From NCBI GenBank assembly GCA_021802705.1, contig JAJZRL010000006.1, positions 1-53,851 of the forward strand: DNA of 53,851 nt, written 5' to 3'. Shown here piece by piece: positions 1 to 53,851 of this stretch. Source of the stretch: a bacterium. Its GTDB lineage: Bacteria > Patescibacteriota > Minisyncoccia > Phycocordibacterales > Phycocordibacteraceae. Numbering within the stretch: the stretch's first letter is position 1; every line of letters begins with the position of its first letter. Position numbers and translations under genes: made by a program. The notes under the pieces were generated by a model. That model ran no database searches, had not been told where the DNA came from, and was given only the letters and a program-made list of their open reading frames with translations.

Positions 1-127
1 CTCACTCCTAGCCATCCTCATCACCGCAGCCGTCTCCTCCGGAGCGAACGCCCTTGCCACCCAGTCCTTCACCGAACCCTCCTCTCCTCCTCCGAACAAT
101 AACGCCGACGCTCCGCTTGACGTGAGC
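1..127 (+). repeat. 127-bp direct repeat, copy 1 (identical to 53630..53756)
   Basis: Base-by-base comparison: ctcactcctagccatcc...ccgcttgacgtgagc is identical in both; sequences diverge after gtgagc (gcgaac versus tacaac). Confidence 0.97.
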
Positions 128-544
128 GCGAACTCCCAATCGAAGTCAGCCGGCCTCCTCCTCAACACCGGAGGAGCCACAAACGGCCTCCTCGTCCAGT
201 ACGGCAACGTGGGCATCGGCACCCTGAACCCCGTCACCACCCTGAACGTTATCGGCAAGGTGGGAGCTGCCGCATACTGCGACCAGAACGGTCAGAACTG
301 CACCTCCACGCTCGGCGGCGGCCCCGTTGCCAACTACAACGACCTGCCGAGCGGGGCGGTGGCGGGGTTTTGTGAAAAACAAAGTAACGCATGTGGTGTA
401 AGTGTTCTTCCGGCATACTGTGGATCTCAAACATTGTGTACATGTCAAACTGGATTCTATAATTTGTATATGGCCTATTGGCAGACGTCGGACATACATG
501 GGCACCTCGTTACACACGAGACTTATACTTGTATCAAAAACTAG
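2..544 (+). CDS. Secreted/anchored surface protein with 'GNVGIGT' module, 5'-partial at window edge
   Basis: Frame is open from base 2: SLLAILITAAVSSGANALATQSFTEPSSPPPNNNADAPLDVS...GNVGIGTLNPVTTLNVIGKV...; signal/TM-like N-terminus; Cys-rich C-terminus; stop at 542-544. ORF track 122..544 is the 3' part. Confidence 0.75.
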   Translation, partial: SLLAILITAAVSSGANALATQSFTEPSSPPPNNNADAPLDVSANSQSKSAGLLLNTGGATNGLLVQYGNVGIGTLNPVTTLNVIGKVGAAAYCDQNGQNCTSTLGGGPVANYNDLPSGAVAGFCEKQSNACGVSVLPAYCGSQTLCTCQTGFYNLYMAYWQTSDIHGHLVTHETYTCIKN

Positions 545-51624: not shown

Positions 51625-53601
51625 ATGAGAAAAAACGGCCAAGGGTTCGACAGGCGCGATATGGACACGAACGTGCGGCCGCAAGACGATTTCTATCATC
51701 ATGTGAATGGCGGATGGTTGAAGAAGAATCCGGTTCCGCCGCACGAATCGCGCTGGGGTTCGTTCCTCATGCTCCGATACGAAACCGAAAAGAAGCTCCA
51801 CGCTATCGTCTCAAGGCTGCAGGACGAGAAGAATCTCAAAGCCGGCAGCGCCGAGAGGATGATCCGTGATTTCTATCGTTCAGGCATGGACACGAAGCGC
51901 CGGAACGCGCTTGGCGCGACTCCCCTTGCGCCCTGGCTTGAGCGTATCGCGAAGATAACCGACGTCCGTTCGCTCGTATCGGTGTTCGCGCATCTCGAGA
52001 CGATCGGCGGCGGCGGCCCGTGGGGAATCGCGGTCGATCAGGACATGAAAGACAGCAGGAAATACGTCGCATACCTGCATCAAAGCGGGCTTGGCATGCC
52101 CGATCGCGATTACTATCTCAAGGATGACCGTGAATCAGTTCGCGTGCGTACCGCATATGTGAAGCACCTCGAAGCGATATTCGCGCTCATGGGAAAGACG
52201 AAAGCCGAGGCGAAGGACGGCGCGAAGACGGTGATGCGTATCGAGACCGCCATCGCGAAGATATCCATGACGAAGGAAGACCTGCGTGATGTCGATAAGA
52301 CATACCATCCGATACGCCGCGCCGCGCTCGCCCGCCTGACGCCCGCGATAGATTGGGATTCTTTTTTCCGGATCGTCGGAGCTCGGGATGTGAACCGAGT
52401 CATTCTCATGCAGCCGGAATTCTTCAAAGCGCTTGATGCGCTTCTCGTGAAAGAGCCTCTTGAGGACTGGAAGACATTCCTGTCCTGGCATCTTGTCGGC
52501 GGTGCTGCAAGCTATCTCACTGCAAGATTCGAAAAGCAAAACTTCGCCTTCTATGGCACGACGCTTTCCGGTGTGACGAAAATGAAGCCGGCGTGGCGGC
52601 GCATCCTTGCCTCGGTGAACGGCAGCCTCGGCGAACCGCTCGGCAGGCTCTACGTGCAGGAGTATTTCAGCCCGGAAGCGAAAAGAAAGGCGGCACGGAT
52701 GGTCGAAGACCTCTTTGAAGCCTACGAAGCGCGCATCAGGAATCTCGACTGGATGAGCGCCGCGACGAAACGGAAAGCGGCGAAAAAGCTGCGTCAGATT
52801 GATCGCAAGCTCGGGTATCCCGATAAATGGAGGAAGTATCGCGGACTCATGATATCCCCTCATGATTATTTCGGTAACGCGGTTCGTACGGCGCGATTCG
52901 AACATGCGCGCATGATGCGCCGTCTCAAGAAGCCGGTGGATCGAAGCGAGTGGTTCATGAACCCGCAGACCGTGAACGCATATTACAGTTTCGGCCTGAA
53001 CGACATCGTCTTCCCTGCCGCGATACTGCAGCCGCCTTTCTTTTCGGTCGATGGCGATGATGCGCTCAACTATGGCGCGATGGGTTCGGTTATCGGCCAC
53101 GAGATCACCCATGGCTTCGACGATCAGGGATCGAAATTCGATGGTACGGGAAACAGGAGAACGTGGTGGACGAAAGAAGACCGGAAACGTTTCGAGAAGA
53201 AAGCAGAGGCGCTCGTCAGGCAGTTTAACGCGTACACCGTCGCGGACGGGCTCGCCGTGAACGGACGACTGACGCTCGGCGAGAATATCGCCGACCTCGG
53301 AGGGGCTTCGATCGCGTATGACGCGTTCCGGCTCCGTCTCGCGAAAACGAAACAGAAAGCAGGCAACGACGCCACCGGACTCACGCCCGAACAACGCTTC
53401 TTCTTCGGTTTTGCCCTCTTTGAACGCGAAAACCGCCGGCCGGAAGCGGAAAAGACCCAAGTCCTCACCGATCCGCACTCGCCCGGTACCTTCCGCATCA
53501 ACGGCCCCGCCTCGAATCTTCAGGAGTTCTATCAAGTCTTCGATGTTCGGAAAGGCGACAAGCTGTACCGAGAGCCGGCGAAGCGAGCGAAGGTTTGGTG
53601 A
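51625..53601 (+). CDS. M13-family metallopeptidase (neprilysin/PepO-like)
   Basis: NVRPQDDFYHHVNGGWLKKNPVPPHESRWGSF; VIGHEITHGFDDQGSKFDGTGNRRTWW; TLGENIADLGGASIAYDAF; FFFGFALFERE. Confidence 0.94.
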   Translation: MRKNGQGFDRRDMDTNVRPQDDFYHHVNGGWLKKNPVPPHESRWGSFLMLRYETEKKLHAIVSRLQDEKNLKAGSAERMIRDFYRSGMDTKRRNALGATPLAPWLERIAKITDVRSLVSVFAHLETIGGGGPWGIAVDQDMKDSRKYVAYLHQSGLGMPDRDYYLKDDRESVRVRTAYVKHLEAIFALMGKTKAEAKDGAKTVMRIETAIAKISMTKEDLRDVDKTYHPIRRAALARLTPAIDWDSFFRIVGARDVNRVILMQPEFFKALDALLVKEPLEDWKTFLSWHLVGGAASYLTARFEKQNFAFYGTTLSGVTKMKPAWRRILASVNGSLGEPLGRLYVQEYFSPEAKRKAARMVEDLFEAYEARIRNLDWMSAATKRKAAKKLRQIDRKLGYPDKWRKYRGLMISPHDYFGNAVRTARFEHARMMRRLKKPVDRSEWFMNPQTVNAYYSFGLNDIVFPAAILQPPFFSVDGDDALNYGAMGSVIGHEITHGFDDQGSKFDGTGNRRTWWTKEDRKRFEKKAEALVRQFNAYTVADGLAVNGRLTLGENIADLGGASIAYDAFRLRLAKTKQKAGNDATGLTPEQRFFFGFALFERENRRPEAEKTQVLTDPHSPGTFRINGPASNLQEFYQVFDVRKGDKLYREPAKRAKVW

Positions 53602-53851
53602 AACCTCTCTCTCGTTCGCCCCTTCTCCTCTCACTCCTAGCCATCCTCATCACCGCAGCCGTCTCCTCCGGAGCGAACGCCCTTGCCACCCAGTCCTTCA
53701 CCGAACCCTCCTCTCCTCCTCCGAACAATAACGCCGACGCTCCGCTTGACGTGAGCTACAACGGCCAGTCTAAAACCGGAGGTCTCGAGCTCAACACCGG
53801 CCTCGCCGCAGTCGGCCTCATCGTCCACGGCAACGTGGGCATCGGCACCCT
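53598..53851 (+). CDS. Second 'GNVGIGT' surface protein, 3'-partial at window edge
   Basis: GTG start overlaps the M13 stop (gtga); MKPLSRSPLLLSLLAILITAAVSSGANALATQSFTEPSSPPPNNNADAPLDVSYNGQSKTGGLELNTGLAAVGLIVHGNVGIGT. Confidence 0.75.
   Translation, partial: MKPLSRSPLLLSLLAILITAAVSSGANALATQSFTEPSSPPPNNNADAPLDVSYNGQSKTGGLELNTGLAAVGLIVHGNVGIGT
53630..53756 (+). repeat. 127-bp direct repeat, copy 2 (identical to 1..127)
   Basis: Exact identity to window start, same orientation; a further 25-bp identity (acggcaacgtgggcatcggcaccct) at 201..225 and 53827..53851. Confidence 0.97.

Follow-up and report, generated by a model that had tools for sequence, protein, structure and literature searches.

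The two ends of the window, the whole stretch of DNA analysed here (53,851 bp, an entire contig, C6), are parts of two different genes of a dispersed family of secreted fibre-like proteins in a Patescibacteria-type genome. We consider it probable, at roughly 60%, that this family varies in the manner of Neisseria opa and opc, with some members that would be switched by CT tracts and with heads that would be shared by recombination. Surface variation in ultra-small, probably host-dependent bacteria is largely unexplained, and this reading, if true, would give Patescibacteria a phase-variable family of fibres that is defined by sequence. The case also exposes a broader blind spot, as metagenome-assembled genomes break at, and hence hide, their most variable genes.

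Window ends and the fibre family

Bases 1–127 of the window are identical to bases 53630–53756 (100%, both on the + strand), an exact repeat far above chance expectation, and overall the two window ends are similar over 198 nt at 88%. This identity had been noted in a preliminary description, together with the divergence of the two translations after ATQSFTEPSSPPPNNNADAPLDVS into ANSQSKSAGLLLNTGG versus YNGQSKTGGLELNTGL; self-comparison of the window and the translations agree on both points. The same description warned that 127 could be the k-mer of a de Bruijn assembly, and it was right. The source assembly has 644.8 kb in six contigs and is 98.4% complete, and when terminal 127-mers are compared among contig ends, the last one of the window (53725–53851) recurs as the first of both C3 and C5, the reverse complement of window bases 100–226 is the start of C2, and the first 127-mer of the window is found again at 53630. 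Because contig ends have exact terminal 127-mers in common, 127 is the assembler k-mer; it is a technical figure, not the length of a biological module, and the identical tract may continue upstream of base 1. More copies of the head lie at C2:100–223 (95%) and C4:52103–52212 (89%), and the ends of C1, C3 and C5 carry fragments of it. Most contig ends of this genome sit in the fibre family or in larger genes for GNVGIGT fibres, so it was these repeats that broke the assembly. The C2 end and C4 start (L011 and L014) lie within larger GNVGIGT/NTTGSYNT repeat fibre genes, and the C2-end protein finishes in a region that looks S74-like by eye; with these two, almost every break in the assembly falls within a fibre gene.

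At the window start, the open reading frames, the translation and a search of the genome itself identify the 3' part of a family gene that we call gene D (1–544, + strand, 180 aa, open at the 5' side), whose start codon and leader are beyond the contig end and whose stop codon is at 542–544. Its shared head (1–127), which doubles as the assembler junction 127-mer, encodes the hydrophobic core of a signal peptide and a proline-rich linker. An S-type stalk block (ANSQSKSAGLLLNTGGATNGLLVQYGNVGIGT, 128–226) distinguished by comparison with the other copies comes next, and the sequence of bases 100–226 is identical to the copy at the C2 start and nearly identical to the one on C4. A conserved linker (...NVIGKVGAAAYCDQNGQNCTSTLGGGPVANYNDLPSGAVAGFC, 227–373), which shares 87–91% DNA identity with the other tails, leads into a gene-specific, Cys-rich C-terminal tip (374–541) with the last residues CIKN and without a Pfam or NCBIfam match. 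Downstream of gene D are greA and then a class II tRNA synthetase gene. The AlphaFold model of gene D has a mean pLDDT of 44.5, too low to use.

Gene C, at the other end (53598–53851, + strand), is the 5' part of a family gene that leaves the contig. Its GTG start codon and the TGA stop codon of an M13 peptidase gene (51625–53601) overlap, and no sigma-70-type promoter was found upstream of it, which is consistent with co-transcription with the peptidase gene but is no proof of it. The shared head (53630–53756) is followed by a Y-type stalk block (YNGQSKTGGLELNTGLAAVGLIVHGNVGIGT, 53757–53851), recognized in the terminal 127-mer comparison. A short (CT)4 tract at 53605–53612, in frame with the GTG, occupies the same place as (CT)8 and (CT)9 tracts in sister copies; with only these four units, gene C is probably not switchable and would be constitutively on.

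The search of the 645-kb genome returned at least five family genes. Heads were found for gene A (C1 end), gene B (C2 start) and gene C, along with a probable degraded head at the C3 end; tails were found for gene D, gene E (C3 start), gene F (C5 start) and gene G (C5 end); and gene H, on C4, is complete at 251 aa. Contig ends interrupt genes A and B, whose heads are not joined to tails in the assembly. Each protein begins with a constant head made up of a signal peptide, a proline-rich linker and at least one GNVGIGT stalk repeat; a conserved Cys linker follows in most cases, and the tip is Cys-rich and specific to the gene. The tips differ among the genes (four are Cys-rich and end in C(I/V)KN), and the flanks of the paralogues are unrelated to one another. 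A comparison of tips across the bin, which the preliminary description had proposed, shows near-identical heads and different tips in at least five genes. By eye, several leaders also carry a TTATCCCCAC motif that is absent from the window.

Neither Pfam nor NCBIfam gives an above-threshold match for the family, and the tail-fibre profiles of PHROG match it weakly. In relatives, proteins with this head carry a C-terminal Peptidase_S74 or Phage Tail Collar domain, neither of which the Pfam search found in the window members. The GNVGIGT stalk repeats, the PHROG matches and these relatives liken the family to phage tail-fibre and Peptidase_S74 proteins, from which it differs in its signal peptide, its dispersed cellular genes and the missing S74 or Collar domain of the window members. 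The family is best read as a secreted fibre that would combine a shared export-and-stalk head with an exchangeable tip. We infer from this anatomy that the proteins would be exported, would form trimers and be retained at the surface, and would be subject to switching.

CT tracts and probable recombination among copies

A more likely switch than programmed tail exchange lies just upstream of the shared module, where the preliminary description did not look: the (CT)n tract in the signal peptides of sister copies. The leader of gene A runs from its ATG through 16 nt to (CT)9, just upstream of the shared module, and that of gene B from its ATG through 16 nt to (CT)8, both within the start of the signal-peptide coding sequence. 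The head is in frame with the ATG only at n = 4, 7, 10 and so on, and is out of frame at n = 8 and n = 9; we saw no alternative in-frame start downstream of the tract in the long-tract leaders. These are the only CT tracts of at least six units in the 645-kb genome, where the expected number of (CT)8 tracts is about 0.0016, and the probability that both would fall in leaders of the family is about 1e-6. Within the 53.9-kb window, dinucleotide runs reach at most 4 units.

The head family is matched in 33 of the 196 genomes searched, this genome included. In a sister species (G026), where all four matched copies are at contig ends, one gene (L075) is the orthologue of gene B, the alignment of their upstream flanks covering 1,392 nt at 83%; its tract is (CT)12, out of frame, versus (CT)8 in gene B. 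The orthologues of gene H have no CT tract in either species. All three complete long-tract leaders (n = 8, 9 and 12) are out of frame as assembled, all tract lengths being assembled lengths, and an off-state assembly of every such leader would also fit decayed genes. The family has three of the features expected of a slipped-strand phase-variable gene, namely a start-located tract beyond chance, a unit change that shifts the frame and a length difference between orthologues. Some members are probably phase-variable through frame-shifting CT slippage, and genes C and H look constitutive. In the three tract-bearing leaders (L009, L010 and L075), a TATACT hexamer seen by eye ends 7–8 nt before the ATG and suggests leaderless transcripts. 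A poly-C-rich stretch at the C3 end, considered as a tract in a fourth leader, was dropped because it looks like a sequencing error.

The rate of dinucleotide tract slippage rises without mismatch repair, and MutS_V was not found in this genome (98% complete) in a search that matched in 11 of 14 control genomes. Slipped-strand mispairing at the CT tracts, unrepaired as MutS was not found, would toggle members on and off and could give populations that change their fibre combinations, as with the Neisseria opa genes. RecA is present, and RecA-type recombination (gene conversion) would keep the heads alike and join different tips to a shared secretion head.

Gene D itself is a mosaic. In an alignment of genes B, C and D, its informative sites all follow gene C as far as base 127 (6/6) and all follow gene B over bases 128–222 (27/27; Fisher p = 9e-7, an approximate value as several sites are adjacent). 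The S-type block is nearly identical in gene H too, although the gene H leader has diverged. Similar patches recur in other pairs: the A and B leaders are 97.8% identical over about 136 nt, B and D are 98.7% identical over 223 nt, and E and F are 98.2% identical, with a stalk insertion in F. The pattern in D, B, C and H is apparently the trace of gene conversion, or of an exchange of segments, between paralogues, an idea raised in the preliminary description with which the mosaic of gene D is consistent.

The closest parallel we see is a dispersed multigene surface family with a leader-coding, CT-type pyrimidine repeat that shifts the frame and with recombination among copies. In Neisseria, each of about eleven dispersed opa genes has CTCTT repeats within the coding sequence of its leader peptide, and these shift the frame (PMC3745409). 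Here, by contrast, the unit is CT, the product is modular and fibre-like rather than an outer-membrane barrel, only some copies have a long tract, and switching is deduced from anatomy alone. Homology to Opa itself was rejected, as the window members have no Pfam or NCBIfam match and no Opa barrel domain.

A candidate second route to variation appears in another relative (G013), which has six family members that share 72–98% of their head DNA, with tails that align no better than chance. Of the seven poly-G tracts of at least 10 nt in that genome, five are upstream of family starts, and in the family promoters examined the poly-G (lengths 7, 10, 10, 11 and 13) lies between TTTACC-like and TACGCT-like hexamers. 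This arrangement resembles promoters of the Neisseria opc/porA type, in which a homopolymer lies between the -35 and -10 elements; it differs in that the G013 promoters are putative and the poly-G belongs to a relative, not to the genome of the window.

Alternative explanations

A simpler account is that the paralogues have merely expanded recently, with heads kept alike by duplication and purifying selection, tips that diverge fast and CT tracts that are neutral in two dead or differently started genes. The out-of-frame assembly of the three long-tract copies would suit it, as would the intact look of the tract-free members C and H. We regard it as unlikely all the same: the CT tracts are unique in the genome and are conserved, at different lengths, at the orthologous position in two species, no in-frame start was seen downstream of them, poly-G tracts recur at G013 promoters of the same fibre family, and simple duplication does not account for the mosaic sites of gene D. 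Still further from the phase-variable, recombining family that we prefer is an assembly or strain-mixture artefact in which the true copies would be fewer than listed, the least likely reading of all. Contig ends that are exactly shared 127-mers and the error-like C3 end speak for such an artefact, but each copy has different neighbours (greA after D, the M13 peptidase gene before C), gene H is complete within C4, the tails differ, and the same family occurs at four contig ends in the G026 assembly. The copies are real paralogues.

Programmed tail switching, in which a cassette, shufflon, diversity-generating retroelement (DGR) or silent locus would join one expressed head to alternative tails, was the candidate put forward in the preliminary description, and it would fit the identical heads that continue differently at the two window ends, as well as the mosaic of gene D. 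We find it very unlikely. The copies have flanks that are unrelated to one another, and diversification of the window family by a DGR was rejected, as no RVT_1 reverse transcriptase was detected in this genome (98% complete). The genome has only one tyrosine recombinase (integrase-family) gene, which is 41 kb from the C1 copy and adjoins no family copy; the window contains no inverted repeats of at least 40 bp; and orphan heads and orphan tails number 4 versus 4, all at contig ends, with no surplus of headless tail cassettes. A shufflon or silent cassettes are thus unsupported, in a test that is incomplete in that the copies are cut at contig ends. What stands of the earlier proposal of a surface fibre/adhesin family is a set of paralogous, secreted, fibre-like proteins with a constant head, differing tails and recently shared head DNA; the programmed switching of tails does not.

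Repeat tracts in relatives and across the order

In the literature searched, which is incomplete, phase variation in the candidate phyla radiation (CPR) appears only in passing or at other loci (PMC6851277), and we regard the novelty of a phase-variable fibre family there as provisional. In Gracilibacterium BD1-5, the assembly of a CPR genome broke at a hypervariable gene, and slipped-strand mispairing was discussed (PMC6851277); that case concerns a single gene with an in-frame coding array of 9-mers, as opposed to the frame-shifting CT tracts of a multigene family described here. A large survey of DGRs does not mention phase variation, frameshift or homopolymers (PMC8144416).

A tentative but real possibility is that Patescibacteria of this order rely generally on simple-repeat contingency loci (CT and poly-G) to change what they present to other organisms, so that fibres and, independently, the avd/RT (reverse-transcriptase) machinery of DGRs would flip by slippage. 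In G013, the remaining two of the seven poly-G tracts are at DGR avd/RT genes, and in another genome (G046) an unrelated secreted protein has a CT tract at its start. Extended to the DGR machinery, such loci would tie together two diversification mechanisms that are usually handled separately.

Several observations from other genomes touch on the same subject. CT tracts at the starts of unrelated secreted proteins, one unit out of frame as assembled, occur in L152, L168 and L191. Genus-wide, in many genomes, poly-G/C tracts of 10–13 nt lie at the 5' ends of divergent avd-like and reverse-transcriptase genes, about 1.8–2.1 kb into the locus (L145, L147, L156, L157, L158, L159, L160, L161 and L163), a hint that phase variation may extend to the retroelement machinery itself. 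Poly-G at contig ends of three further genomes (G056, G064 and G092) was set aside as a possible artefact. Across the order, (CT)9–15 tracts are found at avd starts in L164, L167, L171, L178, L185, L186, L189 and L190; as assembled, they are in frame in L164, L171 and L178 and out of frame in L167, L189 and L190. A CT tract is also present at the start of the reverse-transcriptase gene in L181 and, as judged by eye, apparently inside that gene in L153, L176 and L180.
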